28,876 nucleotides of DNA from a virus, in IMG/VR virus record IMGVR_UViG_3300020406_000020, positions 1-28,876 of that record; one strand, given 5' to 3'. Below, piece by piece: positions 1 through 7,225 of this stretch; the stretch's first letter is position 1; every line of letters begins with the position of its first letter. The position numbers and the translations under genes were made by a program. The notes under the pieces are model-generated. The model made no database searches. It worked only from the letters and a program-made list of their open reading frames with translations, and had not been told where the DNA came from.

Positions 1-661
1 ATCCTTGTCCACCTGATATCTTATCATCTGGATCAAACATATCTTGCGAAGCATATGTATGGTTAGTACAAACTAAACCAACATTGTGACTACCGAACAT
101 ATTTACACAATTTCTAACAAGTGCTGTCAGTGCCTTAGGTTTTCTTCCCATATCACCTTTCATATCACCCTTGTCAAATTGATCAACATCTGTTGGAGTT
201 AACAACATACCTAAACTATCTATTACAAATAAAATTTTAGGTTTGTCTTCCATCTCACGATAATCTTTCATAAATGTGCTAATTGTTTTAGCAACATCAT
301 CAATCATACTCATGCTTAATTTAAGTAGTTTCTTTTCATCTGTATCTACACCAAGTGCTTTTAACCAAGTTTCATCTAAAGCATTTTCACTATCAATTAA
401 GACAACAAAAATATCTTTCTCTTGGGCGTGTTTTACAATGTTACCACTTACAAAATAACTTTTACCTGCACCCGACTCTCCAGCGAATACAGTTACTTTT
501 CCTAGTGGAATACCTTTGTCAAATTCTCCACTTATTAAATAGTTTAATGCATAACTTCCTGTTGAAATCCAATCAGTTGGATCATTAAAGCCGATGCTTA
601 AACCATGTATACTTTTCGTAATATCTTTACGAAATTTACTTACATCAAACGGTTTTCCCAT
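1..661 (-). CDS. uvsX: UvsX RecA-like recombinase (3' end beyond window)
   Basis: This is the N-terminal 220 residues of the T4-type strand-exchange recombinase, which pairs single-stranded DNA with a homologous duplex in phage recombination and recombination-dependent replication. I translated the minus strand from ATG at 659-661. The frame is open to the left edge, so the C-terminus is missing. A Walker A motif GESGAGKS lies at residues 61-68, and a Walker B-like strand ILFVIDSLGML lies in the middle of the visible part. The N-terminus MGKPFDVSKFRKDI and the segment IGFNDPTDWISTG are typical of the marine T4-like UvsX. A GGAG box about 10 nt upstream supports the start. It follows gp32, its functional partner, on the same strand, with a hairpin between them. 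The identification is secure. Confidence 0.95.
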   Translation of the reverse strand, partial: MGKPFDVSKFRKDITKSIHGLSIGFNDPTDWISTGSYALNYLISGEFDKGIPLGKVTVFAGESGAGKSYFVSGNIVKHAQEKDIFVVLIDSENALDETWLKALGVDTDEKKLLKLSMSMIDDVAKTISTFMKDYREMEDKPKILFVIDSLGMLLTPTDVDQFDKGDMKGDMGRKPKALTALVRNCVNMFGSHNVGLVCTNHTYASQDMFDPDDKISGGQG

Positions 662-720: not shown

Positions 721-1716
721 TTACTTCTGTCTTGAACGAATCATTGCCAAGATATCTTCAGCACGTTGTCCTGAATCACCTGACTTTGGTGTTTCGACAG
801 GAGCATCTGCAACTGCGTCAGTAGTTTTAGCAGGTTCTACTGGTGCAGTTTCTGTTGCAGTTGTCTGACTAGTTTCAGCAGTTACCTTTTCAGGTGTTAC
901 TGTTTTTGCATTACCACTGTCTGGTAATTGCACTCCTGAAGGTCTAAAGTACTGGGAGTACTTTTCACTATCATATGCTTTACCATCAACACTATCTTCA
1001 AACATTTGTTTGATTATACCAACTTCTGCCTCATTTGGTTTCTTAGGTAAGAAATCATTTAAGTCATAAAGTCCATATGTGCTAATTGCATTATTTTCTA
1101 CTTCTGTAAGAGCAGATTCTTTTCGTGCCCAATTAGAAGTTGAATAATCCGCATATCCGCCTTTAGAAGTTTTCACAACACGGAAATCAATTCCTTTGTT
1201 GTAATCTGTTGGAAGTTCTTCCATATCAGGATCCATCAAACTTGCTTTTATAATATTAAACAGTTGTGGTCCCATAATAAATCTACGAACAGGATTCTCT
1301 GGAGATTCTTCGTCTAGTGGATTTTCACGGACGAAGCCTTGAAATACATAAGATTTCTTTTTCCAATACTTACGACCCATGTCCTCTAAAGAACTATCTT
1401 TAAACCATGGTCTCACTTCTGCAAGTATAGGACAAGATCCTACAGGTTCCCACATCTCCATACAAGGAACTTGAACAGTAATAGGTTTACTATCTACTTG
1501 TCCTTTTATTCCTTGGAACGGTAAACGAATCATTGCTCGTTCGGCCCAGAAAAATGTGTTGCTTGAATTTGAATCAGGAAGAAATCTTAAGGTAGCCGTT
1601 GTACCTTCTGAAATATTCCAATGTGGGTAAATTGCGTTATCGCCGCCGCTTTTTCCGCCTGATGAGCGGGTGTCTTGTGCTTGTAACTTTGCACGGATTT
1701 CAGCCAATGTTGCCAT
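721..1716 (-). CDS. 32: gp32 single-stranded DNA-binding protein
   Basis: A 331-residue protein matching T4 gp32 (301 residues), which coats single-stranded DNA at the replication fork and recruits UvsX and other replication proteins. The OB-fold core lies roughly at residues 25-235, with family-typical stretches such as HWNISEGTTATLRFLPD and TFFWAERAMIRLPF. From about residue 265 it becomes a Thr/Ala/Pro/Glu-rich linker and ends in an acidic-then-basic tip. The tip is the region that in T4 contacts partner proteins. C85 and C95 keep the Cys-x9-Cys spacing of the T4 zinc site, but I do not find the third Cys or the upstream His in the equivalent places. The start is supported by an AGAGAGG stretch upstream. 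A late-type motif and a TTGACA-type promoter precede it, consistent with expression in several phases. uvsX follows downstream. Confidence 0.93.
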   Translation of the reverse strand: MATLAEIRAKLQAQDTRSSGGKSGGDNAIYPHWNISEGTTATLRFLPDSNSSNTFFWAERAMIRLPFQGIKGQVDSKPITVQVPCMEMWEPVGSCPILAEVRPWFKDSSLEDMGRKYWKKKSYVFQGFVRENPLDEESPENPVRRFIMGPQLFNIIKASLMDPDMEELPTDYNKGIDFRVVKTSKGGYADYSTSNWARKESALTEVENNAISTYGLYDLNDFLPKKPNEAEVGIIKQMFEDSVDGKAYDSEKYSQYFRPSGVQLPDSGNAKTVTPEKVTAETSQTTATETAPVEPAKTTDAVADAPVETPKSGDSGQRAEDILAMIRSRQK

Positions 1717-1793
1717 AATATATGCCTCTCTTTTTGCCTAGTTTAGTTATTAATATTGCCAAGATAGCAATCTCTACTCATTGCTAACACTAA

Positions 1794-1801
1794 TATTTAT
1801 A
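1794..1801 (-). promoter_or_regulatory. Late promoter of gp32 (TATAAATA)
   Basis: An exact match to the T4 late consensus TATAAATA on the minus strand. It would start RNA near 1788 and give a leader of about 72 nt before the gp32 ATG. Confidence 0.7.
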
Positions 1802-1856: not shown

Positions 1857-1886
1857 AATGTAACATCTTTGTTTCTCTAATGTCAA
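1857..1886 (-). promoter_or_regulatory. Sigma70-type promoter upstream of gp32
   Basis: A perfect -35 box TTGACA (1881-1886) is followed 18 nt later by TACATT (1857-1862). It sits immediately downstream of the U-tract that ends the structured RNA. It would give gp32 its own early or middle start independent of the RNA gene. The -10 box is only a fair match. Confidence 0.5.
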
Positions 1887-1896
1887 CCATTTTATT

Positions 1897-2130
1897 AAAA
1901 AAATTTCAACTGCGGCTTGGAGGGCCTTGCTGTGAACTCACCCCCAACTTTCGAATAGCAGATCACATCTATATTTTGCAAGGTTTAGATATGAAATTTA
2001 CTCGAACCACCTCCTCTTAAACCTACCCACTCGGGCGCCTAAAAAGAATTAGTGTGCGTTACCCCTCTGCCGAAGAGTTGTTCCGCCACAAGCACAAAGA
2101 GTTAATTAGACTCAATGTTGCAGTTGAATA
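1897..2130 (-). ncRNA. Stand-alone structured RNA, about 230 nt, unknown family
   Basis: This stretch has no plausible ORF and is clearly richer in G and C than its surroundings. On the minus strand the 5' end UUCAACUGC (2128-2120) is perfectly complementary to GCAGUUGAA (1913-1905), and the second arm is followed at once by seven U (1903-1897). The RNA is therefore closed by a 9-bp terminal stem that also serves as a terminator. A good TTGACT/TATATT promoter lies just upstream. Inside, local helices can be drawn: UGUGC/GCACA enclosing UUGU-GGCGGA-ACAA and CUCU-UCGGC-AGAG; GCCC-GAGU-GGGU; AGGUUUA/UAAACCU; AGAU-GUG-AUCU; and UUGGGGG/CCUCCAA (one G-U). I could not match it to tRNA, tmRNA, RNase P, SRP RNA, 6S RNA or a riboswitch I know. 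A long gp32 leader is the alternative, but the U-tract and the second promoter argue for an independent RNA. Confidence 0.7.
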
Positions 2131-2135
2131 TCTAT

Positions 2136-2164
2136 AATATATATGAATTGAAAACCAAAGTCAA
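2136..2164 (-). promoter_or_regulatory. Sigma70-type promoter of the structured RNA
   Basis: -35 TTGACT (2159-2164), a 17-nt spacer and -10 TATATT (2136-2141). It predicts an RNA start at about 2128-2131, exactly at the first base of the terminal stem. Confidence 0.7.
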
Positions 2165-2276: not shown

Positions 2277-2666
2277 TTATAGTTTGCCTTGTTTACGCAT
2301 TTCAGAACGGATTTTTGTAGCACTAATATCATGTATCTCTTTACCTAAATCATGTTCTGTAAATGTATATCCTACCCCTCTGCCATAACTAATATCAACA
2401 ATATTAGGAACTTGCATTGTAATATATTCAATATTTGCAGTATATCCATGTTTTGCTAATTGTTCATTTATGTTAAGTGCAATAGTTGTAAAATCAAAAG
2501 GATTATCATCATTGCCCATACCAGCATCAACACCTTCGACGTCCCTAACCATTATAGCAACTTGTCCTGTTTTTTCTAATGCTTTTTTAAAAAGTGCAGT
2601 ATGTCCGTCATGCCACGGTTGCCATCTTCCTAGCATCTGCACTGTTGGTTTTTTTAAACTAAACAT
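2277..2666 (-). CDS. HxGH nucleotidyltransferase (NMNAT/cytidylyltransferase-like)
   Basis: A 129-residue protein of the HUP-type nucleotidyltransferase superfamily, whose members transfer a nucleotidyl group from NTP to a small molecule. The ATP-binding motif GRWQPWHDGH (residues 13-22) corresponds to the GRFQPFHxGH of NMN adenylyltransferases, and ISATKIRSEM near the C-terminus matches the second nucleotide-binding motif (ISxTxIR). It is shorter than most NMN adenylyltransferases (about 170 residues). Its first 8 bases overlap the end of the APS-kinase-like gene, so the two are translationally coupled. The family alone does not fix the substrate. NMN is one option. The neighbouring APS-kinase-like gene makes a sulfate-activating role (ATP-sulfurylase-like, same superfamily) an attractive but untested inference. 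It is the last gene of the accessory operon. Confidence 0.8.
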   Translation of the reverse strand: MFSLKKPTVQMLGRWQPWHDGHTALFKKALEKTGQVAIMVRDVEGVDAGMGNDDNPFDFTTIALNINEQLAKHGYTANIEYITMQVPNIVDISYGRGVGYTFTEHDLGKEIHDISATKIRSEMRKQGKL

Positions 2667-3084
2667 TCTTTTTTTCCATATAGTTTTTTACTACATCACT
2701 TAATTGTGAATGTGTATCATTAAACCATGTAGCAACATGGTAATTACATTTTGTTGGTTTTTCAAACATTCTGTTTGTATCTTCATATCTTCCTTCTTTA
2801 ATTGTATCCATCCATACAGTATAATCTGGGTCAAACTCTGCTCGTGCATTTTCAGTAGGACATATGAAATCTGCAACTGCAATTTTACCTGCCATTACAA
2901 CACCATCTGCTAAATGACGCATTCTTTGTGCTTGTCGCATCCTACCACCTTGTGTGAAATCCCAGTCATCATATCTTGTTCGCACTTCATCTGCATTAAT
3001 ATGAACACCACCAATTAATTCTGCAAAAGGTTTTGCAAGTGTAGTTTTACCGCTTCCAGGTAAACCAAATATTAAAATTTTCAT
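2659..3084 (-). CDS. Adenylylsulfate (APS) kinase-like protein
   Basis: A 141-residue P-loop kinase. The Walker A GLPGSGKTT is at residues 7-15. NADEVR at 30-35 takes the place of the DGDxVR of APS kinase. DFICPTENAR at 72-81 corresponds to the FxSPYRxxR segment, and NRMFEKP at 104-110 to the motif near the C-terminus. APS kinase phosphorylates adenylylsulfate to PAPS, the sulfonate donor. The protein is shorter than CysC (about 200 residues), so another small phosphoryl acceptor is possible. An AAGGAG box lies upstream of the ATG. The start overlaps the previous stop (ATGA) and the end overlaps the next gene, so all three genes form one coupled unit with the sulfotransferase-like and nucleotidyltransferase genes. 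Confidence 0.75.
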   Translation of the reverse strand: MKILIFGLPGSGKTTLAKPFAELIGGVHINADEVRTRYDDWDFTQGGRMRQAQRMRHLADGVVMAGKIAVADFICPTENARAEFDPDYTVWMDTIKEGRYEDTNRMFEKPTKCNYHVATWFNDTHSQLSDVVKNYMEKKNV

Positions 3085-3722
3085 ATTGCTCCTTTACGAC
3101 TACTTGCTAATTTAATTGTTTCATCAAGTTCTGATTCTGCTTGTGATATATATTTTGTGTTTGCATCTGTTGATAATATTTTTAAAAGTTTTGTATCATC
3201 TATTGTAGTTTCAACAGGTAACAAACCTATTTCTTTTTCTAACCAATTTAAATAATTTAATTTATATAGATATAACAGTTCTTGACTTGCAAAAATTGTT
3301 TTGTGATTTGATATTATATTGTTAATCTGTTTAATAAAAAAAGAGGTAGTATGTTTACCTCTTACTCTTTGTTGTTGTAATTTAATTATATTACTATCTC
3401 TACCAATTATTACAAATTGTACTTCTGCATACTTACTTGCTTCTTTTGTAAATTTTTTGTAACTTGGAATTGTTTCTGCTCCATCATCAAAATAAGGACA
3501 ACTAATACTTGTAACAAAATGAAAACTTTGTTTCCAATCAAATTCATTTAATTTTTTAGGATTTTTCCAATAGTCTGCAAAAGGTTCTAAATCATGTCCT
3601 TCCCAATATTTTTCCTGTAGACTGGGCCATGCAAAAATATTTCTATTTTGTCCTAGTGCTTTGCTGAATAAATGATTACCACTGCCTTGTGGTCCTGTCA
3701 TTATTGTTAATATTGGTTTCAA
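3081..3722 (-). CDS. Sulfotransferase-like P-loop protein
   Basis: A 213-residue protein with TGPQGSGNHLFSK at residues 9-21. This P-loop variant resembles the 5'-phosphosulfate loop (PKSGTTW type) of sulfotransferases more than a normal GxxxxGKT kinase loop, because the Lys follows later. A segment after strand FVIIGRDSNI, with Arg and Ser, could be the 3'-phosphate-binding motif. I infer a PAPS-dependent sulfotransferase, supported by the APS-kinase-like gene directly downstream, but the similarity is weak and an unknown P-loop enzyme is possible. The start appears to be TTG (overlapping the previous stop as TTGA) with GGGGT just upstream. An in-frame ATG seven codons later lacks a ribosome-binding site. 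The target is unknown; a cell-surface or virion glycan would be a reasonable guess. Confidence 0.5.
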   Translation of the reverse strand: MKPILTIMTGPQGSGNHLFSKALGQNRNIFAWPSLQEKYWEGHDLEPFADYWKNPKKLNEFDWKQSFHFVTSISCPYFDDGAETIPSYKKFTKEASKYAEVQFVIIGRDSNIIKLQQQRVRGKHTTSFFIKQINNIISNHKTIFASQELLYLYKLNYLNWLEKEIGLLPVETTIDDTKLLKILSTDANTKYISQAESELDETIKLASSRKGAI

Positions 3723-4651: not shown

Positions 4652-6157
4652 TTATGTATAATCCAATCCTTTATCTTTTCTCACTAAACTATTTATGAAT
4701 ATGCCTACTGCAATAACAATACATATTAGGAAGATAGGATGATTACTAAAACTAAATAATTCTCCCCAACGAAATCCTTCCATTGAAGTTAATCCTGGCT
4801 TCCATTGTTTATATCCATACAACTGTAATGTTCCCCAAAAGTATTCATCAATTTTAAATGCTACAACATAGGCAACAAGAATCGCTGGTCTACTAATATT
4901 AAAATACTTACATACACAACCAATTGCACTCAATATTGTAAGTAGTGCCAAGTCTTCCCAGCCTCCTGTGTATTGCATATTTGCATAAATTATAACTGCT
5001 AAAATAAATGAAGCATAAATCCAAAAAGGAACTTCTAATACTTTAAGAATATATTTGTATAAAAATATACTTAATAATGCTACACCTATTGTACCAAAAA
5101 TATATCCAAATGCTAAACTATTTGTAAATTTAATATCCTTTAACAAATCTGGTGTGCCAATTTCCATACCAAAATACATACATATTGCCATAACCATAGC
5201 CGCAAATGGTGCCGCAGGAATACCAAACAAACAAGCAGGTATCATACTAGATACTTTTTGTGCATTGTTGGCTCCTTCACAACCTAATAATCCTACAGGG
5301 TTTCCTTCACCAAAAGGTACTTCTTGTTTTTCTTTGTGTGCCGCTTTTGTGGCACCATAAGCCAAAAAGTCTCCTACTGCTCCTCCTACACCTGGAAGTA
5401 GTCCAGTAACAAACCCTATTAATCCACCACGCATCATATCACGCCAGTGTTTTCTAACGTCACCAAAACCTTGTTTCAATCCATCAAAGTAATTTCCTTC
5501 CAATGGTGGTGCCGCTGATTTTAAATTTTTTCTAAATCCGTCTAATAATTCTGGAACTCCAAATAGTCCTGATAGTAAAACAACCATTCCAATTCCATTT
5601 TGTAAATATTCCCAACCAAATGTTAGTCTTGGATTACTTACAACGTCTTCGCCAACCATACCCACTGCTAGTCCAAATATGATTGCACAAATACTTAAAA
5701 ATACATTTTTACTTGCCACAAAACCTACACAGGCTAGGGCCATTGTCATGAAGCCCAGAAACTCTGGACGTCCAAATAATACTATAATTTTTCCATAATA
5801 AGGAAGTAAGAAGAAAGTTAGTGCCGCGAATACAACTCCATTAAATGTTGAGTCAGCAATAGCAATACCCATTGCTCTTGCGGCTTGACCTTTCTTTGCC
5901 ATAGGATAACCATCAATAACACAAGCCGCAGTAGTACTTGCACCTGGGATACCTGTTAAGATACTTGTATAACTATCTGCACTGGCACAACTTGCCACGA
6001 TTGCAGTAAGAAAGACTAATCCAAGATATGGATCAGCCATAAAATATGCTCCCATGCTAAAGACAGTTATCAGGGCGGTAGTTACACCTGCAATAGGTAT
6101 AATACCAACCAGCATTCCATACATGGTGCCGATTAAAGCCCAGATAACATATTCCAT
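4652..6157 (-). CDS. tctA: TctA-type permease of a tripartite tricarboxylate transporter
   Basis: A 501-residue, very hydrophobic protein with about 11-12 membrane segments, full length for the TctA family. Family motifs are present in order: GMLVGIIPIAG near residue 14; GIPGASTTAACVIDGYPMAK with KGQAARAMGIA around residues 68-100; GLLPGVGGAVGDFLAYG around 253-269; and GIPAAPFAAMVMAICMYFGM after residue 310. TctA is the large membrane subunit that, with TctB and the periplasmic TctC, drives ion-coupled uptake of citrate or other carboxylates. An AAGGG box precedes the ATG. It is 12 bases after tctC, as in bacterial tct operons, but no tctB is present. The phage permease would have to work with a host TctB, with another small subunit, or alone. 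A transporter permease is an unusual cargo for a phage. Confidence 0.93.
   Translation of the reverse strand: MEYVIWALIGTMYGMLVGIIPIAGVTTALITVFSMGAYFMADPYLGLVFLTAIVASCASADSYTSILTGIPGASTTAACVIDGYPMAKKGQAARAMGIAIADSTFNGVVFAALTFFLLPYYGKIIVLFGRPEFLGFMTMALACVGFVASKNVFLSICAIIFGLAVGMVGEDVVSNPRLTFGWEYLQNGIGMVVLLSGLFGVPELLDGFRKNLKSAAPPLEGNYFDGLKQGFGDVRKHWRDMMRGGLIGFVTGLLPGVGGAVGDFLAYGATKAAHKEKQEVPFGEGNPVGLLGCEGANNAQKVSSMIPACLFGIPAAPFAAMVMAICMYFGMEIGTPDLLKDIKFTNSLAFGYIFGTIGVALLSIFLYKYILKVLEVPFWIYASFILAVIIYANMQYTGGWEDLALLTILSAIGCVCKYFNISRPAILVAYVVAFKIDEYFWGTLQLYGYKQWKPGLTSMEGFRWGELFSFSNHPIFLICIVIAVGIFINSLVRKDKGLDYT
4690..4697 (-). promoter_or_regulatory. Possible internal late promoter (CATAAATA)
   Basis: CATAAATA on the minus strand lies inside the 3' end of tctA. 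It would start RNA near 4684, 34 nt before the oxygenase ATG. It resembles the other late motifs in the window, but it lies in coding sequence, so a chance match is possible. Confidence 0.4.
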
Positions 6158-6169
6158 AGGTCTATTCCC

Positions 6170-7225
6170 TTACTTTAATAGTTCGGGCTTGTAGATTGAT
6201 GGGAAGCCGTATGCTTCTTGATTCCACTTGACTGCATCTTTAAGAGCTTTTTCTGTAATCAAAGATTTCAGTGCCGCTAATAATGATGGTCCATCTTGGA
6301 TCCAAGGATACTCGCCTGTCTTTGCATAGATCTCTGCACTAGCAACTGGATCATTAATCATTTCAGTTACAGCCGCTTTAACTTTTGCCGCATTTGGATT
6401 TCCTTTATTCATCCAAAGTGATTTTTGGATTGCATCTCTCCAATTACGAGTAAGTTTGTATGCATTATATAAATCACCTGATGGCTTCTCGCCCCATAGT
6501 TTTTCATATACATCTTCAAACTGTGTGTTAGGAAAGTTTGGATCTGGAATCTGCACATTGTTTTCTAAATCAAGAATACCATGTGTGAACCATAGTTCAT
6601 TTTCTTCAATGCCTTCGTAGAAACGTTTCCAAGCCGCTGGTGATTCACGTGCTACATCAAATTCGCCGTTTTTAAAACCAAGACGTTTTTCTCCGCCTGA
6701 TACACCATTAACCCAAATTACACGTTCTCTCCAACACTTTAGATAATCATCTACAGTGTTGTTACCTTGAGGTCCGCAAAGTAACATAGCAACTGCCGCC
6801 GCATCTGGTTCAAACCCTGATCCGCCTGCTATAGTCCATGTTCCTTCTTTTTCTTTTGCTCCAAAGTGTTTGCCAAGAACAATATCATTGTTCATTGAAC
6901 CAATTAACTCATAGTCAAAGTAGTTGTAATCAACTTTGTCTAATAAGTATGATACACCATTACCTCCATGTGCAACCATAATTGTTTTGTCATCAAAACG
7001 TAGGCTGTTATGGAATTTATTAAATCCAGGGATATCTCTTGCTCCTGGAATATGGCGTACCACTACTGGTTCTCCAATAAACTTTTCTAAGTTCTTTGCA
7101 ATAATTTCGCTCCATACTGAAGTACCTTTGCCAGGTGCTTGTGGAACAATTAAAGTATAATCAGCAAATGCTGAAGTAACAATACCTAATGAAAGTATTG
7201 CTGAAAGTAGTAGTCTTTTAAACAT
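6170..7225 (-). CDS. tctC: TctC-type periplasmic solute-binding protein
   Basis: A 351-residue protein with a clean Sec signal peptide (MFKRLLL, hydrophobic core, then SAFA with cleavage expected after A21). The mature start DYTLIVPQAPGKGTSVWSEIIAKNLEK matches the opening of the TctC/Bug family, where the first strand is followed by a GGxxD-like loop and a helix. FIGEPVVVRHIPGA corresponds to the conserved strand and G-A loop. Two cysteines about 15 residues apart (CGPQGNN..KCW) could form a disulfide. The protein would sit in the periplasm, bind a carboxylate and deliver it to TctA. It is slightly longer than the family norm (about 300-325). An AAGGAG box lies 8 nt before the ATG. It is the first gene of the accessory operon and has an unusual 200-nt leader. 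Confidence 0.9.
   Translation of the reverse strand: MFKRLLLSAILSLGIVTSAFADYTLIVPQAPGKGTSVWSEIIAKNLEKFIGEPVVVRHIPGARDIPGFNKFHNSLRFDDKTIMVAHGGNGVSYLLDKVDYNYFDYELIGSMNNDIVLGKHFGAKEKEGTWTIAGGSGFEPDAAAVAMLLCGPQGNNTVDDYLKCWRERVIWVNGVSGGEKRLGFKNGEFDVARESPAAWKRFYEGIEENELWFTHGILDLENNVQIPDPNFPNTQFEDVYEKLWGEKPSGDLYNAYKLTRNWRDAIQKSLWMNKGNPNAAKVKAAVTEMINDPVASAEIYAKTGEYPWIQDGPSLLAALKSLITEKALKDAVKWNQEAYGFPSIYKPELLK

Follow-up and report, generated by a model that had tools for sequence, protein, structure and literature searches.

A distant manA relative upstream of gp32 in a phage contig

The manA RNA motif (RF01745) was described by Weinberg et al. in 2010 (PMC2864571). The function of manA RNAs has not been established since that description, and they are annotated as cis-regulators. 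A regulatory RNA next to gp32 has a precedent in phage T4, where the autoregulatory leader of gene 32 sits upstream of gp32. Other structured phage RNAs, GOLLD and ROOL, often lie near tRNA genes and have no known role (PMC7567579). A 2020 survey of pelagimyophages that used Riboswitch Scanner reported no regulatory RNAs (PMC7029224).

Here, we analyse a structured RNA upstream of gp32 in a marine phage, IMG/VR record IMGVR_UViG_3300020406_000020; the window is the whole stretch of 28,876 nucleotides (positions 1 to 28,876), to which all coordinates refer unless another contig or genome is named. Judged from sequence comparison, this RNA is a distant, previously undetected relative of the manA motif, connected to it via intermediates. 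The window variant extends the manA family to phages without an Rfam match above cut-off; the cultured SAR11 phage HTVC008M is one of them.

Locus and transcription signals

The gene-free gap upstream of gp32 is exactly 560 bases long (1717-2276), as a preliminary description of this DNA had stated. That description had also recognized the structured block; its features are all present, but the strand, left unstated there, is the minus strand (the RNA runs from about 2128 to 1905). The flanking genes are all on the minus strand too. The main features of the locus are as follows.

721-1716, minus strand: gp32 single-strand DNA-binding protein (PHROG 1192, E = 7e-69)
1857-1886, minus strand: second promoter-like site, TTGACA-18-TACATT, presumably that of gp32 (consensus match)
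1897-1903, minus strand: U7 tract after P1a, a possible terminator, unconserved (sequence)
1905-2128, minus strand: manA-like structured RNA, about 224 nt (fold, covariation, profile and covariance-model matches)
2136-2164, minus strand: sigma-70-like promoter of the RNA, TTGACT-17-TATATT (consensus match)

The promoter of the RNA had been read correctly (2164-2136, minus strand), as had the perfect 9-bp stem joining the two ends: the -10 element ends 7 bases before the first base of this stem, P1a, and the position of the sigma-70-like promoter places the predicted RNA start at that base. A promoter occupies the equivalent position in the related loci L002, L129, L167, and L235, and a 12/12 consensus match lies just upstream of the RNA in HTVC008M. 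In these five and the window, the -10 element ends 7 to 8 nt from the RNA start, and the spacing to P1a is near-constant in the gp32 branch. At the other end, the seven U reported to follow the second arm directly are present, but a single A (1904) separates the P1a 3′ arm from the tract (1903-1897), which is missing in L001, L002, L129, and L228. The TTGACA promoter said to follow the U-tract was recovered at 1886-1857, and L001, L002, and L167 carry promoter-like sequence at the same place.

The gp32 leader itself (1717-1800, minus strand) contains a small hairpin-like sequence, ATTGCTATC..GGCAAT, that is kept in L001 and L002 and may be a translational operator. Elsewhere in the window, 4652-7225 on the minus strand holds a TctA family transporter gene (Pfam TctA, E = 1e-85) and, next to it, a 351-aa ORF that resembles its TctC-type binding protein and is a candidate for it; such a TctA-type transporter pair would be unusual auxiliary metabolic genes for a phage contig.

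Fold and covariation

The minus strand folds with -75.9 kcal/mol (z = -3.49), a value equalled by none of 200 shuffles, and the plus-strand fold is weaker (z = -2.50). From 5′ to 3′, the RNA comprises the following parts.

2120-2128, minus strand: P1a 5′ arm, UUCAACUGC, of the terminal stem (sequence; compensating stems in relatives)
2095-2117, minus strand: P2 hairpin, 2117-2111/2101-2095 (two-sided changes in 5 of 7 pairs)
2089-2093, minus strand: P1b 5′ arm, GCUUG, partner 1919-1915 (two-sided changes in 3 of 5 pairs)
2056-2086, minus strand: P3/P4, consisting of GCG/CGC, a conserved internal loop GAAYA/AA, and a stem-loop with UUCGGCAGAG
2015-2047, minus strand: P6a (2047-2044/2018-2015) and P6b (2035-2033/2028-2026) (two-sided changes in 4 of 7 pairs)
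1954-1998, minus strand: P7 (1998-1996/1956-1954), enclosing P8 (1994-1987/1970-1963)
1920-1945, minus strand: P9, GGGGG/CCCUC, after conserved GAAAGUUG (both alignments)
1915-1919, minus strand: P1b 3′ arm, CAAGC (covariation, nine-sequence alignment)
1905-1913, minus strand: P1a 3′ arm, GCAGUUGAA (sequence; compensating stems in relatives)

Where the window has the 9 bp of P1a (TTCAACTGC, 2128-2120/GCAGTTGAA, 1913-1905), compensating stems stand in L001 (ACAACUAAC/GUUAGUUGU), L129 (CUACACAC/GUGUGUAG), and L167 (CAACGCAC/GUGUGUUG); the diverged arms still pair in the window and in L001 (ACAACTAAC/GTTAGTTGT). Across nine window-group sequences, 8 helices with 39 pairs were paired in 99.1% of cells, a share biased upwards because the structures were drawn partly from the same alignments. 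By the firmer measure of two-sided changes, 16 of the 39 pairs varied on both sides (52 cells), and sliding the partners by 1 to 3 columns left 34 to 50% paired and 0 to 3 pairs with such a change. An alignment of 13 sequences from two subfamilies, which adds P7, gave 98.1% paired cells (subject to the same bias), with 16 pairs and 62 cells changed on both sides, compared with 33 to 54% and 1 to 5 pairs in slid controls. Alignments A2 and A4, whose subgroups were misaligned or shortened, were excluded from the structure counts.

Among individual helices, two-sided changes occur in one of the three P3 pairs and two of the four P4 pairs in the nine sequences, and in all three P7 pairs across subfamilies; P8 variation is one-sided only in the nine-sequence alignment. 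An unguided helix search put P2, P4, P6a, and P1b at its top ranks. As comparative evidence, the covariation is decisive that the structured RNA is real, and here the compensatory changes strongly support the preliminary description.

The P6b tetraloop is GAGU in the window and NANU in most relatives. P7 adjoins a conserved AGUA/GAA that resembles a loop E motif; AGUA opposite GAA beside P7 is a better fit than a tRNA-like T-loop reading of GGUUCGAGUA, which was dropped. In P3, a UAA/GAN reading gave way to the more cautious one of a conserved internal loop, because A2078 is paired with U2061 and C2077 with G2062. The P4 loop may form a pseudoknot with a conserved GUUG, a possible pairing in which one side hardly varies.

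Relatives and the link to manA

Two relatives found via gp32 homologs, L001 and L002, carry the same block at the same place and have retained the promoter site. Their identity to the window is 98% over a core of about 171 nt, compared with 85% for gp32 DNA and 65 to 68% for the 5′ arm. Motif scans of viral contigs placed the RNA at more than 130 loci in varied gene settings, and a profile recognizes it in 139 fetched loci and records (55 after near-duplicate removal). The 3′-motif scan ignores the 5′ element, yet most loci so found carry it. Chance pattern matches at L084, L090, L092, L128, and L137 were thrown out. Blastn searches of annotated phages, run with the window copy of the RNA and with eight others, diverged or related, returned nothing related. 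In 84,980 prokaryote genomes (species), the 5′-motif pattern had no match and the 3′ motif had 48, none with a full-length profile match; most of those listed look coding, and several appear FKBP-like by eye. Because exact patterns miss diverged copies and two gamma-proteobacterial manA RNAs have been reported (PMC2864571), we do not claim that the superfamily is confined to phages.

Compared with Rfam, the window reaches no family at gathering, and at E ≤ 10 in 651 bases only chance matches appear, with manA absent; ARAGORN and Rfam give no tRNA or tmRNA match in the window. To that extent the RNA is unassigned, as the preliminary description had called it. This label did not stand once intermediates were compared, through which the RNA is homologous to manA. 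Among 16 further loci compared with Rfam, L199 (58.8 bits) and L216 (55.3 bits) exceed the RF01745 gathering cut-off of 55.2 bits; at looser settings, L151 (53.2 bits), L175 (51.4 bits), and L148 (46.6 bits) fall just below it. An nhmmer profile built from 13 manA-side sequences finds the window RNA with E = 0.012 in 2 Mb and, iterated once with no window-group members, near full length with E = 1.1e-16 in the window. From the opposite direction, R1, a covariance model built on the window group and the Pam3 group, recovers L199, L148, L175, and L216 at full length with E-values from 7e-15 to 2e-11 (L199, 6.6e-15; L216, 2e-11); a chance match of R1 at E = 0.001 (L137) means that weaker E-values need care. 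The classical manA RNAs in P-SSM2 and P-SSM4 escape R1, and the RF01745 model misses the window RNA and its near relatives; the homology therefore rests on the intermediates. As the window fails the Rfam cut-off, we call its RNA a manA-like relative and not an RF01745 member.

When the covarying helices are set against the Rfam structure line by eye, the order of 5′ hairpin, long-range stem, core, and 3′ hairpin matches manA. The middle domain, which has a canonical branched form in P-SSM2 and P-SSM4, consists of P6a/P6b only in the window, and L151-type intermediates have an extra hairpin. The distribution is marine and phage: viral contigs and the cultured HTVC008M, P-SSM2, and P-SSM4. RF01745 matches P-SSM4 with 184 bits and P-SSM2 with 182 bits. 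Its match to HTVC008M is weak (25.9 bits, E = 6.8e-6), and R1 matches this Pelagibacter phage with E = 7e-14. Hypothetical ORFs overlap the manA-like RNA in HTVC008M (NC_020484, 4993-5163) and P-SSM4 (NC_006884, 164884-165057) and may be false gene calls.

Several related contigs hold further RNA features. A permuted tmRNA lies at 2638-2906 (plus strand) of L185 (RF04321, 64.8 bits), a phage contig that also carries the RNA as well as tRNA genes, and a tmRNA at 3192-3468 (minus strand) of L189 (50.5 bits). L088 has a group I intron at 347-539 (minus strand; RF00028, 70.7 bits) in a tRNA array beside the RNA. In the contig of L097, a tRNA-array phage, a second weak R1 match (G010:C1:6737-6841, plus strand; 21.7 bits, E = 9e-5) stands directly behind the first, perhaps through a duplication or a long insertion.

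Independent RNA or leader

We consider it probable that this manA relative is a compact phage noncoding RNA with its own promoter, predicted to act as an independent molecule that binds a partner. Transcription from that promoter would begin with the first P1a base and yield an RNA closed by P1a/P1b, bearing P2, and with a core of P3/P4, P6a/P6b, P7/P8, and P9. A separate promoter behind the RNA apparently serves gp32, and the folded RNA most likely acts alone during infection, binding its partner and not switching gp32.

The downstream gene is gp32 in the window, L001, L002, L167, L235, and HTVC008M, and it varies even inside the window group, where gp32 (window, L167), a head maturation protease (L129), or an unknown ORF (L163) follows. 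Near the RNA of L083 lies a terminase small subunit; in L153 the RNA precedes uvsX with a terminator between them, and some subfamilies sit in tRNA arrays. Promoter-like sites occur just upstream in 11 of 45 loci versus 5.7% of random positions, and terminators behind the RNA in 7 of 45 versus 1%, descriptive rates given that the loci are related and hand-picked; 34 of the 45 are without a consensus promoter and 38 without a terminator. The intrinsic terminators between RNA and gene are those of L148, L153, L154, L171, L175, L212, and L224. In P-SSM2 and P-SSM4, the RNA follows a TTGACA...TATAAT promoter by eye. We favor an RNA that stands alone and probably acts in trans, rather than the published cis reading, in view of its own promoters, the terminators found in some subfamilies, the tRNA-array sites, and the changing downstream genes. 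The mixed settings are best explained by a self-sufficient RNA that can sit at any site where a phage promoter is able to transcribe it.

The lack of a consensus promoter or terminator at most loci speaks against a stand-alone RNA, as do the leader-like positions of the L098-L146 group and of P-SSM2. The alternative is cis control of the downstream gene by a leader, either a riboswitch or a protein-binding one, as proposed for manA in 2010 when the motif was classed as cis-regulatory and a possible switch (PMC2864571). Such a leader would account for the RNA of the large L098-L146 group, which immediately precedes the ribosome-binding site of a gene like Pam3 gp33, and for the one 16 nt before purL in P-SSM2. 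In HTVC008M, where the RNA stands directly before gp32 as in the window, the 73-nt gap shows no obvious second promoter by eye, so the RNA could belong to the gp32 leader there. The preliminary description had counted a match to a known cis-regulatory leader continuing into gp32 against an independent RNA, and the manA homology together with this HTVC008M arrangement amounts to part of such a match. We nevertheless judge a leader to be rather unlikely, given the gp32 promoter-like site behind the RNA in the window (with similar sequence in L001, L002, and L167), the terminators that part RNA from gene, the copies in tRNA arrays, and the unrelated downstream genes.

Autoregulation of gp32 through a target site in this RNA, in the manner of the T4 gene 32 leader, would fit the six loci with gp32 downstream, but it is very improbable: the same RNA type precedes unrelated genes (L129, L163), and the window RNA would fall outside a transcript from the gp32-proximal promoter. 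That the fold is accidental, or that the block is coding or acts at the DNA level, as the moderate fold z-score and the small ORF calls across the RNA in HTVC008M and P-SSM4 might suggest, is scarcely credible, being refuted by the covariation in both alignments and at odds with the lack of any minus-strand ORF of at least 50 aa across the RNA in the gap 1717-2276.

For the stand-alone RNA, a broader reading can be put forward tentatively: manA-type RNAs may be a widespread, phage-borne class of free-standing structured RNAs, trans-acting during infection, and not leader switches, with the Rfam family one branch of a far more diverse superfamily and the window RNA another. The variety of gene neighbors and the presence of separate transcription signals speak against one single cis role, and a cultured phage-host pair makes the cis/trans question testable.

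Among described systems, the T4 gene 32 leader shares with the window RNA a place upstream of gp32, but the window fold is much larger and many of its relatives stand without gp32. GOLLD and ROOL are far larger than the window RNA, which has no match to either in Rfam; the size given for a similar RNA of ICP1 is about 800 nt. With manA, the window RNA shares the 5′ hairpin (P2), the long-range stem (P1b), an internal loop with GAA opposite UAA, a branched middle, a terminal hairpin with GGU-A...CC, and the marine phage distribution, and L199, L216, L151, L175, and L148 form a bridge by matching both the Rfam model and R1. It differs from manA in its extra terminal stem P1a, in a different P7/P8 region with AGUA/GAA, apparently in being without the canonical P-SSM2-type branched middle domain, in lying below detection by the Rfam model, and in having its own promoter-like site and a second one for gp32.
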